From NCBI GenBank assembly GCA_902788975.1, contig CADAMI010000002.1:1-51967 (forward strand): DNA of 51,967 bases, given 5' to 3'. Under the pieces are notes generated by a model that worked only from the letters and a program-made list of their open reading frames with translations, made no database searches and was not told the DNA's origin. Within the stretch, counting starts at the first letter, position 1. Each line of letters opens with the position of its first letter. This DNA is from an uncultured Erysipelotrichaceae bacterium. Its GTDB lineage: Bacteria; Bacillota_I; Bacilli_A; RF39; UBA660. This document shows positions 2,653 to 41,447 of this stretch, piece after piece. A program made the translations under genes and the position numbers.

Positions 2653-4248
2653 ATGAAAAAGAAAATATGGATTGTTAGAATACTAATTATTATATTATTT
2701 GCATTTTTACTATATTATGTAACATTACCCGCTATTAATTTACATAATCCAGGATTTTATGCTTATTTGTTTATGATATTTATTTGTTATCTTATAACAT
2801 CTGGGATTAGTTTGTTTGATGGAGAAAGAGTTATTAATAAAGTAAAAAGATTACCAAGAAATACATTAATAGTTGTAAGTAGTGTTACAACAGTTATTGT
2901 ATTAATTATTTTGGTAAATGTAATATCTAGTCCATTATTTAATTCCAAGTCATGGGCTAGTAGAATTACGATTCAAGATGATACAAGTTTTACAGATGAT
3001 ATTAAAGAAGTAGATTTCAATCAAGTACCATTATTAGATAAGGATTCTAGTCAAAAACTAGGAGATAGAGTAATGGGACAGATGAGTGAACTTGTTAGTC
3101 AGTATTATGTATCAGATTTATATACCCAAATTAATTATAATAATGAAATAGTTAGGGTTACACCAATTGAATATAATGGATTTATTAAATGGTTAAATAA
3201 TAAAAAACATGGAGTACTTGGATATATTAAAGTTAATTCAGTAACGGGAGCAAGTGAATTAGTTAAATTGAATAAGGGTATGAAATATATGCCTAGTGCT
3301 TATATTTTTAAAGATTTAGATAGAGCTCTTAGATTTAAGTATCCAACAACAATCTTCGGAACAATTAGTTTTGAAATTGATAATGAAGGAAATCCTTATT
3401 GGGTTGTACCAACTATTAAATATACAGGCGTTGGGTTAAAAGAAGAAATAAATGGAATTGTTTTATTAGATCCAGTTACTGGTAAGACTAATAAATATAA
3501 TATTGACGAAGTACCTAAATGGGTTGACCAAGTGTATTCAGCAAGTTTAATAATTGAACAAATAGATGACTGGGGAATGTATAAGAATGGATTCTTAAAT
3601 TCAGTATTTAGTCAAAATGGGGTAGTACAAACAACTGAAGGATACAACTACTTGGTTAAAGATGATGATGTTTATATGTATACGGGTATTACTTCGGTAT
3701 CTACGGATGAATCTAATATTGGGTTTGTACTTACGAATATGCGCACTAAAGAAACTAATTTTTATGGCGTTCCAGGAGCTGAAGAATATTCAGCAATGGC
3801 ATCAGCTGAAGGTCAAGTTCAACAAATGAAATATATTTCTTCATTCCCATTATTAATTAATTTAAATAATAGACCAACATATTTAATGAGTTTAAAAGAT
3901 AATGCTGGACTTGTTAAAATGTATGCTTTTGTCGATGTAACTGATTATCAAAAAGTAGTTGTCACTGATAGTACATTAGGTATAGATGTAGCTGCTAATA
4001 ACTATTTGAATAATGCTAATTTAGGTAGTGGAGTTGCTAATAATAGTAAAGAAATTATTGTTAAAGCAATAAGTACAGCAATTATTGATGGGAATACTTA
4101 TTATTATATTATCGACAATGATAATCAAAAATATAAAGTATCTATAAAAATTAATAGTAGTCTATTACCATTTATTAATGTTGGTGATAAGATAGAAGTA
4201 AGTTATAATAAGATATCTGATGTTATCGATATAGTTAAGATAAAATAG
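2653..4248 (+). CDS. Large membrane-anchored protein of unknown function
   Basis: This 531-aa protein has three N-terminal membrane segments (about residues 8-24, 35-53 and 73-92). A long soluble domain, probably extracellular, follows and is rich in the V-T-G-x-x-N-K-Y and L-L-D-P-V-T-G type turns seen in PepSY-like or beta-propeller proteins. The last 65 residues (EIIVKAISTAIIDGNTYYYI onward) look like a small beta-barrel. I do not recognise the family with confidence. It follows the DUF308 gene closely and ends at a strong terminator. AGTAGG before ATG 2653 is a modest ribosome binding site. No catalytic motif is apparent. Confidence 0.6.
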   Translation: MKKKIWIVRILIIILFAFLLYYVTLPAINLHNPGFYAYLFMIFICYLITSGISLFDGERVINKVKRLPRNTLIVVSSVTTVIVLIILVNVISSPLFNSKSWASRITIQDDTSFTDDIKEVDFNQVPLLDKDSSQKLGDRVMGQMSELVSQYYVSDLYTQINYNNEIVRVTPIEYNGFIKWLNNKKHGVLGYIKVNSVTGASELVKLNKGMKYMPSAYIFKDLDRALRFKYPTTIFGTISFEIDNEGNPYWVVPTIKYTGVGLKEEINGIVLLDPVTGKTNKYNIDEVPKWVDQVYSASLIIEQIDDWGMYKNGFLNSVFSQNGVVQTTEGYNYLVKDDDVYMYTGITSVSTDESNIGFVLTNMRTKETNFYGVPGAEEYSAMASAEGQVQQMKYISSFPLLINLNNRPTYLMSLKDNAGLVKMYAFVDVTDYQKVVVTDSTLGIDVAANNYLNNANLGSGVANNSKEIIVKAISTAIIDGNTYYYIIDNDNQKYKVSIKINSSLLPFINVGDKIEVSYNKISDVIDIVKIK

Positions 4249-4279
4249 AATTTAAGATATTTCTTAAGTTCTTTTTTTG
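4249..4279 (+). terminator. Rho-independent terminator after the large membrane protein gene
   Basis: AATTTAAGA-TATT-TCTTAAGTT hairpin followed by C and seven Ts (4272-4278). The next promoter element begins at the T-tract. Confidence 0.8.
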
Positions 4280-33832: not shown

Positions 33833-33869
33833 AAATACTAGATTTATAAAAAAGATCTAGTATTTTTTT
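33833..33869 (+). terminator. Terminator after the ABC transporter operon
   Basis: AAATACTAGAT pairs with ATCTAGTATTT, followed by Ts that run directly into the next promoter element. Confidence 0.85.
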
Positions 33870-33933
33870 AACTATAAGTTAATACATTTGTTTGAATTTA
33901 TTATTGACATTAATAATGATGTTTTGTTATAAT
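33868..33933 (+). promoter_or_regulatory. Composite promoter element, copy B (type I toxin 1)
   Basis: TTAAC (33868-33872) N5 GTTAA (33878-33882), ACATTTGTTTG (33884-33894), 9 nt, TTGACA (33904-33909), 18 nt, TATAAT (33928-33933). Transcription would start near 33940. Confidence 0.8.
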
Positions 33934-33965
33934 ATTATTTAGGAATATTTGATAGTTGGGTGATG

Positions 33966-33989
33966 CCTCCAATCTTAATAGATTGGAGG
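33966..33989 (+). promoter_or_regulatory. Hairpin sequestering the ribosome binding site of toxin 1
   Basis: CCTCCAATC (33966-33974) pairs perfectly with GATTGGAGG (33981-33989) around TTAATA. The GGAGG of the toxin gene lies in the right arm, so translation should be blocked in this fold. Confidence 0.8.
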
Positions 33990-33996
33990 TGATGCG

Positions 33997-34089
33997 ATGA
34001 GTACCAAAGAATTAAAAAACTTGCTTAATATTTTACTTATCATCGTAATATTACTTATTGCATTACTATTCGTAGTGCTCATGAAATAA
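33997..34089 (+). CDS. Putative type I toxin: small hydrophobic membrane peptide (30 aa), copy 1
   Basis: The 30-residue peptide begins MSTKELKNLLN, continues with an uninterrupted run of I, L, V, A and F of about 17 residues, and ends L-M-K. That is one membrane helix with charged ends, like Fst/TxpA/TisB-type toxins. GGAGG (33985-33989) is buried in a perfect 9-bp hairpin. The mRNA 5' segment GGGTGATGCCTC (33958-33969) can pair with GAGGCATTACTC (34138-34149) at its 3' end. A convergent promoter could make an antisense RNA over the 3' part. A second locus of identical design lies at 36275. I assign no known family; toxicity is inference. Confidence 0.7.
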   Translation: MSTKELKNLLNILLIIVILLIALLFVVLMK

Positions 34090-34123
34090 AAGATTGCCTA
34101 AATAAGCTTAGTTAGGCAATACC

Positions 34124-34203
34124 CAAAAAAATATTTTGAGGCATTACTCAACAGCGAAAAGTCAAGTATTCCTCTTTTTTAATATATGAAGTTTCCTTCA
34201 TCT
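34124..34203 (-). ncRNA. Putative antisense RNA antitoxin of type I locus 1
   Basis: Minus-strand promoter: TTGTTT (34238-34233), 17 nt, TATAAT (34215-34210), start near 34203. The RNA would begin with a small hairpin (ATGAAG-GAAA-CTTCAT), then ATATATTAAAAAAG and the long terminator hairpin. It could read on to a second hairpin next to the toxin stop codon (ends near 34086). The layout matches the antisense RNA of locus 2. Confidence 0.6.
34138..34180. terminator. Bidirectional terminator of type I locus 1
   Basis: Imperfect hairpin GAGGCATTACTCAAC (34138-34152) with GTCAAGTATTCCTC (34161-34174), followed by TTTTTT on the plus strand. On the minus strand it is followed by ATTTTTTT (top A-run at 34124-34131). 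The left arm also pairs with the toxin mRNA 5' end. Confidence 0.7.
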
Positions 34204-36116: not shown

Positions 36117-36150
36117 AAGAGAATTGAGTATGTTATCAATTCTCTTATTT
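36117..36150 (+). terminator. Terminator after lepA
   Basis: AAGAGAATTGA pairs with TCAATTCTCTT, followed by ATTTTAAT; the next promoter element starts immediately. Confidence 0.8.
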
Positions 36151-36204
36151 TAATACATTTGTTTGATTTTATTATTGACTTTTCATTAATGCGTTTGATA
36201 TAAT
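36150..36204 (+). promoter_or_regulatory. Composite promoter element, copy C (type I toxin 2)
   Basis: ACATTTGTTTG (36155-36165), 9 nt, TTGACT (36175-36180), 18 nt, TATAAT (36199-36204). The left half of the upstream inverted repeat is missing here; the T-rich end of the lepA terminator takes its place. Confidence 0.78.
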
Positions 36205-36274
36205 TATATTGGAACATTTAGTGTGAGTGTCTGCCTTGAGTCGTTCTTACGAATAGATTGGAGGCTTGGTCAAT

Positions 36275-36367
36275 ATGAAAAAACGTGAATACAATATCAG
36301 GTTTTTAAGGTATATTTCGATCATTTTATTTCTGATTATCATTTTGATAATTGTTATAAAAAAATGA
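36275..36367 (+). CDS. Putative type I toxin: small hydrophobic membrane peptide (30 aa), copy 2
   Basis: The peptide begins MKKREYNIRFLRY, has about 15 consecutive I, L, F, V and S residues, and ends in K-K. It differs from copy 1 in sequence but has the same length and single-helix design. GGAGG (36260-36264) lies in the right arm of an imperfect hairpin formed with GCCTTGAGTCGTTC upstream. The mRNA 5' part GTGAGTGTCTGCC (36223-36235) can pair over 13 positions, with three G-U wobbles, to GGTAGGCATTCAC (36419-36431). An antisense promoter faces it. The TGA stop lies in a hairpin that also serves as the antisense terminator. Toxicity is inferred. Confidence 0.7.
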   Translation: MKKREYNIRFLRYISIILFLIIILIIVIKK

Positions 36368-36484
36368 CATCCACTTTACTATGGATGTCCCCGTTTTATG
36401 CCATATGGCATTTAATTAGGTAGGCATTCACAAGGAAAACTGAATGTTCCACCTTTTTTAATATATGCAAGAACTCTTGCTTAC
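36358..36484 (-). ncRNA. Putative antisense RNA antitoxin of type I locus 2
   Basis: Strong minus-strand promoter: TTGACA (36519-36514), 17 nt, TATATT (36496-36491), start near 36484. The RNA starts with hairpin GCAAGA/TCTTGC, then ATATATTAAAAAAG as in locus 1, then the long hairpin. It can end after GACATCCA/TGGATGTC (36389-36366) followed by ATTTTTTT. It covers the toxin stop codon and the whole 3' region of the toxin mRNA. Confidence 0.65.
36419..36459 (+). terminator. Terminator of type I locus 2 mRNA
   Basis: GGTAGGCATTC (36419-36429) pairs with GAATGTTCCACC (36442-36453), followed by six Ts. The left arm is also the partner of the mRNA 5' end. Confidence 0.7.
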
Positions 36485-39661: not shown

Positions 39662-39680
39662 TGATTTAAATCTTTTTTTG
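39654..39680 (+). terminator. Terminator after the YlbF/YmcA-like gene
   Basis: AGGTTTAA-TGA-TTTAAATCT hairpin with seven Ts, overlapping the stop codon region. Element D starts directly after it. Confidence 0.7.
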
Positions 39681-39746
39681 TTAACTATATGTTAATACAT
39701 TTGTTTGTGATTATTATTGACATATGTAGTATTTATTTGTTATAAT
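39681..39746 (+). promoter_or_regulatory. Composite promoter element, copy D
   Basis: TTAAC (39681-39685) N5 GTTAA (39691-39695), ACATTTGTTTG (39697-39707), 9 nt, TTGACA (39717-39722), 18 nt, TATAAT (39741-39746). Transcription would begin near 39753. Confidence 0.8.
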
Positions 39747-39771
39747 TAATATTAGAATGGCTGGTGAACAT

Positions 39772-40452
39772 ATGGACTATGAACTAAAATGTGGTTATGA
39801 TTATTTAGAAATTTTCTTTTCAGTTAGAGAAGAAAGATTAGAATATTTAAATAATAATTACAAATATCAAGATATATTGTTTAGGCAAAATAAAGGTAAT
39901 ATTCCTGTTAAAAGTGAATTGTTAAATATATATGAAAATGATAGAGAAATATTTGATAGTGTTATAGGGACTTTTTGCAACATAAGGCTTGTAAGTAATT
40001 GTTTATATGAATTTAATATTGCTGATATATATAAATTAAAGATTAACGAAATAAAGAAAATTGCAAAAGAAATTTTTAACAGATATAATGCTACTAATAT
40101 ATTTTTTAATGATGGAAATAAAATCTTTATTAATAAAACTGGTATAGATGAAGTAATCACAAAAATTTATGAAAGTAGAGAGCAAAGAAAATATTTAATT
40201 CAGCATTTAATTATAATAGCAAATATGTGTAATATAGTGGAACATGGCATATTAGTAAATCAAGCATTAGAATTTAAAGGTAGAGACAAGTACAATAATT
40301 GGAATTATTATCTTGATGTAGTTAATATAACTGGTGAATTATACATTTTAGTATATGATGTCGTGTCAATGACAAATGGCGAAAATCATTATAGAGTACA
40401 AAAAATAGAAAAAATAAAAAAACAGAGATTTCCACTGGGAGTACAAAAATAG
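39772..40452 (+). CDS. Unknown protein, C-terminus resembles BECR-type (PBECR) nuclease domains
   Basis: This protein of about 226 aa has no signal peptide or membrane segment. I do not recognise the N-terminal 130 residues. The C-terminal 75 residues contain L-E-F-K-G-R-D-K-Y-N-N-W-N-Y-Y, then beta strands and E-N-H-Y-R-V-Q-K-I. This recalls the phage-associated Barnase/EndoU/ColicinE5-D/RelE-like nuclease fold, where a late His-Tyr motif is usual; this is a weak resemblance. GGTGA (39763-39767) selects ATG 39772; ATG 39757 would be almost leaderless. It shares the promoter element with the type I toxin-like genes, and a convergent small RNA overlaps its stop codon. Confidence 0.5.
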   Translation: MDYELKCGYDYLEIFFSVREERLEYLNNNYKYQDILFRQNKGNIPVKSELLNIYENDREIFDSVIGTFCNIRLVSNCLYEFNIADIYKLKINEIKKIAKEIFNRYNATNIFFNDGNKIFINKTGIDEVITKIYESREQRKYLIQHLIIIANMCNIVEHGILVNQALEFKGRDKYNNWNYYLDVVNITGELYILVYDVVSMTNGENHYRVQKIEKIKKQRFPLGVQK

Positions 40453-40484
40453 CACCTTACCAGTTTCCAAAATCTCTGTTCTTG
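40411..40484 (-). ncRNA. Putative antisense small RNA overlapping the 3' end of the 39772 gene
   Basis: Minus-strand promoter TTGACT (40518-40513), 17 nt, TATATT (40495-40490); start near 40484. The RNA would be about 75 nt: AACAGAGATTT (complement of 40480-40470) pairs with AAATCTCTGTT (40431-40421), with an inner ACTGG/CCAGT stem. A T-rich tail follows (top A-runs 40411-40420). The stop codon of the sense gene lies in its loop. Confidence 0.6.
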
Positions 40485-40597
40485 GTTATAATATAGCATA
40501 ATTAAATAAGAAAGTCAATGCTTAAAAATGAAATCATAATAGTCAAAAATGAATATATAAAAGATAATATAAATGCTGATAGGCTAGAAAAGATTTA

Positions 40598-40646
40598 TGA
40601 AAAAAGAACCCAAGTACGAATATAACTTCGTAGTTGGATTCATCTA
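40598..40646 (-). ncRNA. Possible second short minus-strand RNA (hairpin-terminator)
   Basis: Minus-strand TTGACA (40680-40675), 17 nt, CATATT (40657-40652). Then follows a hairpin GAATCCAACTACGAA with TTCGTACTTGGGTTC (complement of 40641-40627 and 40620-40606) and six Ts. The 314-nt gap 40453-40766 otherwise shows no gene. Confidence 0.4.
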
Positions 40647-40766
40647 TGTTCAATATGTCATAATCTAATATAAATGTCAATTATGATATATCTAATAATA
40701 GTAATATGCAAGAAAAAGAAAAAAAATACTTAAAAATAGTTTATAATAATTATATGAGGTGATTTA

Positions 40767-41447
40767 ATGAAGGTAATTACTAATATGTTATTTAAGAAAC
40801 AAGATCTTAAATATCGAGAATTTACGGCTAAATCAATACCTAATATAAGTATAGATAAGATTATTGGAGTACGTATTCCGGGTATTAGAGTATTAGCTAA
40901 AGAAATAAAAGATTGTGAATATATAGATGAATTTCTAAATGAATTACCTCATGGGTATCAGGAAGAGAATTTGTTACATGGAATAATACTTAGTTATTAT
41001 AAAGATATTGATTTATTACTTAAGAAATTAGATATATTCTTAAAGTATACAGATAATTGGGCAGTAACAGATATTATTAGTCCTAAGATATTTAAAAAGT
41101 ATCCGGATAAAGTATATAAATATATTGTTAAATGGGTAAATAGTAAAGATGAATATAAAATTAGATTTGGGGTAGTTAGTTTATTACAATTTTATTTAGA
41201 TGATAATTATAATAAAAATATTTTATGGTTAGTTAAAAATATTAAAAGTGAATCATATTATGTCAAGATGGCAATTGCTTGGTTTTATTCTTTTGCTTTG
41301 ATAAAACAATATGATGATACGATTATATTATTTCAGGATAAATGTTTAGATAAATGGATTCATAATAAGAGCATTCAGAAAGCAATAGAGAGTTATAGAA
41401 TTAGTGATGATAAAAAAGAATATTTAAAAAGTTTAAAAATAAAGTAG
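40767..41447 (+). CDS. AlkD-like DNA alkylation repair protein
   Basis: This 226-aa all-helical protein matches the DNA alkylation repair (AlkD/AlkC-like HEAT-repeat) family. Evidence includes I-I-G-V-R-I-P-G-I-R-V-L-A-K-E near residue 31, E-E-N-L-L-H-G near 66, and T-D-N-W-A-V-T-D near 105 with the conserved W and D that approach the damaged base. F-G-V-V-S-L-L follows near 135. AlkD removes cationic alkylated purines without base flipping. ATG 40767 is preceded by GAGGTGAT. The PLC-like gene follows after 8 nt, giving a short operon. Confidence 0.85.
   Translation: MKVITNMLFKKQDLKYREFTAKSIPNISIDKIIGVRIPGIRVLAKEIKDCEYIDEFLNELPHGYQEENLLHGIILSYYKDIDLLLKKLDIFLKYTDNWAVTDIISPKIFKKYPDKVYKYIVKWVNSKDEYKIRFGVVSLLQFYLDDNYNKNILWLVKNIKSESYYVKMAIAWFYSFALIKQYDDTIILFQDKCLDKWIHNKSIQKAIESYRISDDKKEYLKSLKIK

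Follow-up and report, generated by a model that had tools for sequence, protein, structure and literature searches.

What does a 226-residue protein do when the stop codon of its gene lies inside the hairpin of a predicted RNA gene on the opposite strand? The question is raised by a locus in a 51,967-nucleotide stretch of DNA (the window, in full) from an uncultured Erysipelotrichaceae bacterium (contig CADAMI010000002.1). The protein carries LPD3 (Large polyvalent protein-associated domain 3), a domain that was defined from polyvalent proteins of phages (Iyer 2017, PMC5512222), and many LPD3 loci in other genomes and viral contigs have an antisense RNA unit at the same place. It is moderately probable, on the sequence comparisons given below, that these RNAs are antitoxins (immunity RNAs) for phage BECR-type nuclease effectors and that the window copy is a captured module. 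The features at the locus are the following:

39757-40452, plus strand: open reading frame (ORF) of the LPD3 protein, 231 amino acids from the ATG at 39757 and 226 from the ATG at 39772
39717..39746, plus strand: sense promoter TTGACA-18-TATAAT, 12/12 to the sigma-70 consensus, with the TG of an extended -10
40048..40392, plus strand: LPD3 domain with a predicted BECR/RelE-like ribonuclease (RNase) fold, from Pfam PF18798 and structure matches
40490..40518, minus strand: convergent promoter TTGACT-17-TATATT (-35 at 40518-40513, -10 at 40495-40490, TG before the -10), kept in homologues
40417..40484, minus strand: predicted small RNA and candidate RNA antitoxin, a hairpin with a terminal T-run that spans the stop codon (40450-40452)
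40652..40680, minus strand: second promoter, TTGACA-17-CATATT with TG, a sequence match
40600..40645, minus strand: second predicted small hairpin RNA with a T-run, tandem to the first

The ATG at 39772, with GGTGA ahead of it, is the preferred start (226 amino acids, 39772..40452). A preliminary description made from the letters of this DNA had called the protein unknown; in fact it matches Pfam LPD3 (PF18798) with 32.1 bits, above the curated cut-off of 27 (E 1.5e-7). Searches of NCBIfam and PADLOC gave no match, and PHROGs gave weak matches only. No function was found assigned to LPD3 in the polyvalent-protein paper. Judged by its sequence, the window gene is a chromosomal, stand-alone copy of this phage polyvalent-protein domain.

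The same description had reported a toxin-type sense promoter and a convergent promoter that would make a hairpin RNA of about 75 nucleotides (nt), and all of these elements are present where it placed them. The minus-strand RNA is predicted to be about 70 nt long, starting near 40484 and ending in a T-run near 40410. Its hairpin arms lie at 40418-40431 and 40470-40483, the minus-strand fold has a predicted energy of about -26 kcal/mol, and the T-run occurs at this hairpin on the minus strand only. The TAG stop codon of LPD3 falls in the apical region, as had been proposed. The second RNA had been overlooked; it scores 7.7 bits with R1, a covariance model of the main LPD3 RNA family described below, and is not recognised by it. 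A local search with R1, filters off, finds the first RNA at 28.8 bits. Units of promoter, hairpin and T-run were called on both strands of the whole window, and because only five were obtained, one of them a tRNA and two at the LPD3 locus, the units at this locus are beyond chance expectation.

Profiles and closer alignments were required to find relatives, because single-protein scans of genome and viral collections and a tblastn search against INPHARED phages gave none. A single-protein search of 147 related genomes gave one other relative, 46% identical, within an ORF of 1824 amino acids whose contig also bears a phage portal gene. When 385 genomes of the order were searched with a profile, 27 had LPD3. 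Most copies are stand-alone proteins of about 180–300 amino acids, and others lie in ORFs that reach 2,762 amino acids. The first LPD3 alignment was too diverse for scanning, and alignments A2 and A5 found nothing among viral contigs; alignment A3 found IMG/VR contigs, and 3/3 of them have an antisense unit. A unit was called where an antisense promoter of at least 10/12, a stable hairpin and a T-run stood just after the domain. Such units follow the LPD3 domain in 24 of 30 loci by criteria that were set while viewing LPD3 loci (later tests on MuF_C and PBECR3, with the same criteria, are cleaner), and controls gave 2/30 on the sense strand, 0/900 in dinucleotide shuffles and 9/480 in other tiles of the same loci. 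Sub-threshold antisense units were seen by eye at L045 and L047. The convergent promoter is thus conserved in homologues at LPD3 loci, a check that the preliminary description had named. Giant phage ORFs carry the unit within the reading frame itself; seven fetched regions (118 kb) contain seven units, six of which are antisense within an LPD3-bearing ORF, one in each. The antisense promoter of a second LPD3 ORF on the L036 contig matches at 12/12, and an ORF of 2599 amino acids from another bacterial family has a unit too. At L034 (G154:C40), an LPD3 phage-gene fragment lies between CRISPR-like repeats (GTTTTAGATCTATGTCATCTTAAATGGTATTAAAAC) on both sides; phage DNA may have interrupted an array there, or the assembly may be at fault.

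These hairpins stand at domain or gene borders, the linkers are AT-rich, and some R1 matches are palindromic enough to score on both strands. They might then be mere terminators or DNA recombination sites (attC-like, or joints for domain shuffling), with the promoters as by-products of AT-rich sequence. This is very unlikely, as the promoter and T-run are in register on the antisense strand only, by the counts given above, and the distance from promoter to RNA is near-fixed in non-coding copies. A terminator of the sense transcript would also be senseless inside a long ORF. An attC-like recombination site was set aside on the strand specificity of promoter and T-run.

For the main LPD3 RNA family, 30 distinct units were gathered, and 27 of them were aligned (A4). 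The RNA has an outer stem of 16 bp, a short asymmetric internal loop, an inner stem of four pairs and a variable apical part. In A4, 97% of cells pair, and double-side changes occupy 62 cells against 19.2 in shuffles (0/500); structures slid along the alignment collapse. Coding constraint is not the cause of the covariation, since the 16 units outside any LPD3 ORF covary likewise (43 double-change cells against 11.5 in shuffles, 0/500). The model detects the three viral RNAs and has matches in 12 of the 385 genomes, most of them adjoining LPD3, frequently as tandem sets of two to four in which every gene has a promoter of its own. The -10 element ends 4–6 nt ahead of the RNA start in the 13 units checked. 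Rfam 15 gave no match at E up to 1 for 10 loci, including the window locus. In genome G177 a 420-aa ORF and a TrmH-like gene flank LPD3 together with four RNA genes, and G452 has two RNA genes at the same site without LPD3. An orphan RNA with no LPD3 nearby is common to G177:C8 and G452:C38, further orphans occur in G273 and G168, and in G271 the LPD3 reading frame is broken and the adjoining RNA is intact. Such persistence of the RNA after loss of the toxin is, as read from these genomes, the behaviour of an antitoxin or immunity gene, and is unexpected for a pure terminator or a purely cis-acting element. Upstream of the promoter of each tandem RNA gene in G177 (L065, 6750-7260), a conserved CCGGACATTATAACTA-like stretch was also observed.

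The arrangement invites comparison with plain cis-antisense control, in which the RNA would repress or destabilise LPD3 mRNA from its 3' end, as in type I systems, with no binding of protein. The RNA is perfectly complementary to the mRNA 3' end over 67–75 nt, at the stop codon. For array members, duplexes of -47 to -84 kcal/mol are predicted with the mRNA of the resident toxin, so that imperfect antisense pairing is possible for them as well, and type I-like loci belong to the same host regulon. As the whole explanation it is nonetheless unlikely, and it is insufficient because RNA arrays and structure-keeping orphan RNAs are not explained by it alone. Compensatory changes preserve the fold in copies outside LPD3 genes, yet these copies match the region of the resident toxin over only 7–16 contiguous nt. 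Orphan RNAs survive with no target gene in cis, and the unpaired core positions are invariant. The covariation and the orphan RNAs are at most suggestive of an RNA that binds and inhibits the toxin protein.

Antisense units also occur at other BECR-type domains. When viral contigs were scanned with one LPD3 subfamily, ten were obtained in which a conserved module is followed by varying cassettes. The unit lies directly after the domain in L121 (LPD3 by alignment), L122 (LPD3, with a Pfam score just under the cut-off), L127 (PBECR3) and L128 (MuF_C). No unit was found at the domain in L124 and L125 (metallopeptidase-type cassettes), L123 (no family) or L130 (ART-like by eye). The near-identical viral contigs L126 and L129 have an antisense promoter and hairpin further on, at 3657-3703, beside an apparent C-terminal remnant of a nuclease domain. 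Among genomes, MuF_C has an antisense unit at 9/11 loci (other tiles 1/172) and PBECR3 at 6/29 (other tiles 0/474), the positives being long or polyvalent types. The RNA sequence type differs by domain: the MuF_C RNAs (AAAGAACTTGCTACGG...) and the PBECR3 RNAs (AGAACTCGTACCRCTG...) are both unlike those of LPD3.

That RNA types follow domain types, and that the RNA gene of phages invariably accompanies the effector gene in cis, on the antisense strand, would suit a regulatory or structural element without a role in immunity. The RNA might time or limit expression of the polyvalent gene, or be a guide, scaffold or substrate partner that LPD3 needs. This is improbable, as RNA genes outlast the protein, unlike a cofactor or a purely cis-acting regulator, and tandem arrays of different RNAs adjoin a single protein gene.

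Reading the RNAs as antitoxins calls for a toxic partner. Assignment to the BECR fold rests on a helix followed by a four- to five-stranded sheet together with a structural match to BECR members, and the active site on a helix His and a C-terminal Ser/Thr (or an Arg variant). In AlphaFold2 models the LPD3 domain has a pLDDT of about 95 within the full-length protein and 85 when modelled alone. The model has helices followed by four strands, and BECR/RelE toxins rank first at Z 4.5–6.7, values too low for a safe assignment of the fold. The best match of the domain model is the CDI toxin 6cp9 (Z 6.7, 3.2 A, 95 aa), followed by 7m5f, 7vd7 (a toxin-antitoxin entry), 6vek, 6cp8 and RelE 4fxe; every one of the six best rows is a bacterial toxin entry. 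CDI toxins likewise rank first for the full-length model. A helix His, E.K.R, W.YY and a C-terminal Arg, with putative roles, are invariant across 14 LPD3 sequences. A search of PDB sequences with LPD3 gave no relative. The suggestion in the preliminary description that the C-terminus recalls BECR nucleases is thus supported by the ranking of the structure matches, although these are weak. LPD3 is predicted to be an RNase-like effector domain of BECR/RelE fold, with RNase activity and toxicity as putative properties.

In the proposed mechanism, LPD3 would be an RNase-like effector domain that phages carry within giant polyvalent proteins. The RNA that covers its 3' end on the minus strand would be a constitutively transcribed, structured RNA antitoxin. 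As the RNA gene lies antisense in the toxin ORF of phage genes, a lysogen would make the RNA continuously and would be protected when the effector is made or injected. Chromosomes would have captured LPD3 and RNA modules; they carry tandem RNA genes next to these and can retain RNA genes without the toxin. Neutralisation might proceed by binding of RNA to the protein (type III-like) or through base pairing to the mRNA (type I-like). The former is preferred, since the sequence drifts while the fold and the unpaired core stay. More tentatively, there may be a class of RNA immunity in which toxin-family-specific RNAs of conserved fold, each with its own promoter and terminator, lie antisense inside or just after phage BECR-type effector domains. 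Such RNAs would protect lysogens from injected nucleases, and hosts would gather tandem and orphan RNA genes as the counterpart of the orphan immunity proteins of polymorphic toxins.

Several results weigh against this interpretation. The structural likeness is weak (Z <8, Foldseek E ~0.1), and no link of LPD3 to PBECR3 or MuF_C emerged from profile–profile comparison, although the PBECR3–MuF_C pair fails as well. No match passed a strict genome-wide R1 search of the genome of the window, whose RNA is a divergent member. The solo LPD3 genes L025, L028 and L029 have no RNA unit, nor do most short stand-alone PBECR3 genes, and PBECR4 loci show no comparable unit at the domain. The loci are also related, being a narrow set from uncultured gut Bacilli and viral contigs, so the statistics and P values overstate independence.

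Among known systems, type III modules (the ToxIN family) have ToxI repeats that precede the toxin gene, on its own strand, and are processed by the toxin. A structured, repeated RNA would neutralise an RNase in both cases; the LPD3 RNA genes, however, lie on the opposite strand at the 3' end, each has a promoter and a terminator to itself, and a BECR/RelE-like fold is predicted for the toxin. Type I systems include soluble toxins, such as SymE/SymR, in which SymE is SOS-controlled, and 3'-overlapping pairs such as txpA/RatA. They share with LPD3 a convergent or antisense small RNA over the toxin gene, and at LPD3 loci an antisense RNA gene with predicted promoter and terminator overlaps a predicted toxin gene and is conserved in homologues. 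In contrast to type I, the fold of the LPD3-type RNA covaries and is toxin-family-specific, and the RNA occurs within phage genes and also as orphan genes. The locus had been described as a copy of the plan of type I loci; the convergent RNA agrees with this, and the locus is in addition a chromosomal member of a phage polyvalent-effector and RNA pairing. The CDI BECR toxins 6cp9, 6vek and 6cp8, which are among the best structural matches of the LPD3 domain, are neutralised by protein immunity (CdiI) and have no detectable sequence similarity to LPD3.

Polyvalent proteins (Iyer 2017, PMC5512222) and MuF polymorphic toxins (Jamet 2017, PMC5576092) contain the same domain families in phage settings. 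The former paper describes no RNA partner, and the word 'antisense' is absent from its text; the latter proposes small immunity proteins and likewise describes no RNA partner. The literature consulted on polyvalent proteins, MuF toxins and other RNA antitoxins (mostly open-access, without preprints) does not describe RNA partners of LPD3, MuF_C or PBECR3 domains. RNA-neutralised toxins are already known, and there is a real chance that the LPD3 pairing is a new kind of phage immunity. We know of no means, beyond predicted immunity proteins, by which lysogens and phage-producing cells survive their own injected polyvalent nucleases. A linked RNA gene would answer how they do so and suggest a function for LPD3. 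It would also explain antisense RNAs within large phage genes and provide new small RNAs that inhibit RNases. As the pairing recurs in many gut bacteria and giant phage genes, bacteria and prophages may use an undescribed set of RNA antitoxins against phage-injected nucleases. RNA genes antisense in toxin ORFs escape annotation, which indicates where to search.

Control of the toxin gene is a further part of the question. Two features stand ahead of its promoter:

39680..39707, plus strand: repeated regulon element GTTAACTATATGTTAATACATTTGTTTG, upstream of the -35, with copies elsewhere in the window and genome
39695-39707, plus strand: LexA-box-like part ATACATTTGTTTG, within the GTTAACTATATGTTAATACATTTGTTTG element

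The composite element that had been noted upstream of the gene recurs across the genome. The region 39671-39747 is repeated in the window at 4270, 33863 and 36146 and more weakly at 533, and GTTAACTATATGTTAATACATTTGTTTG...TTATTATTGACA occurs at about nine other genome sites by pattern and similarity searches. The pattern search gave 8 matches, including the window locus, and reversed-pattern controls gave 0. The element precedes five type I-like hydrophobic peptides, three Bro-N-like genes and a DUF4186-like/ORF6N-like pair (names by inspection). The sharing of this upstream element by Bro-N-like genes and toxins suggests that they form one regulon. The promoters of lexA and recA in this genome carry AAACAAATGTTTG and CAAACGATTGTTTG, which ATACATTTGTTTG resembles. 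The three solo LPD3 genes that lack an RNA unit have a AAACAAATGTTT box, as in the lexA promoter, between -35 and -10. The window copy of LPD3 and its RNA is probably a captured module that is SOS-induced; its LexA-like box would give DNA-damage induction against a steady level of RNA. The gene may belong to a damage-induced set, a reading that is weak because the LexA-like motif alone is not enriched in the window.

The five type I-like loci that carry the promoter element (peptides of about 30 amino acids, with hairpins) lie at 33863-34200 and 36146-36400 of the window and at C7:12213, C28:5738 and C49:1853 of G000 (L009, L008 and L010). The peptide of the C7 copy is identical to that encoded at 33998 of the window. 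The Bro-N-like genes with the same upstream element are those at 533-1473 of the window, L007 and L019; the element also has a GTTAACTATAAGTTAA part. The gene that follows LPD3 in the window, at 40767-41447, matches the Pfam DNA alkylation repair family (E 2e-13).
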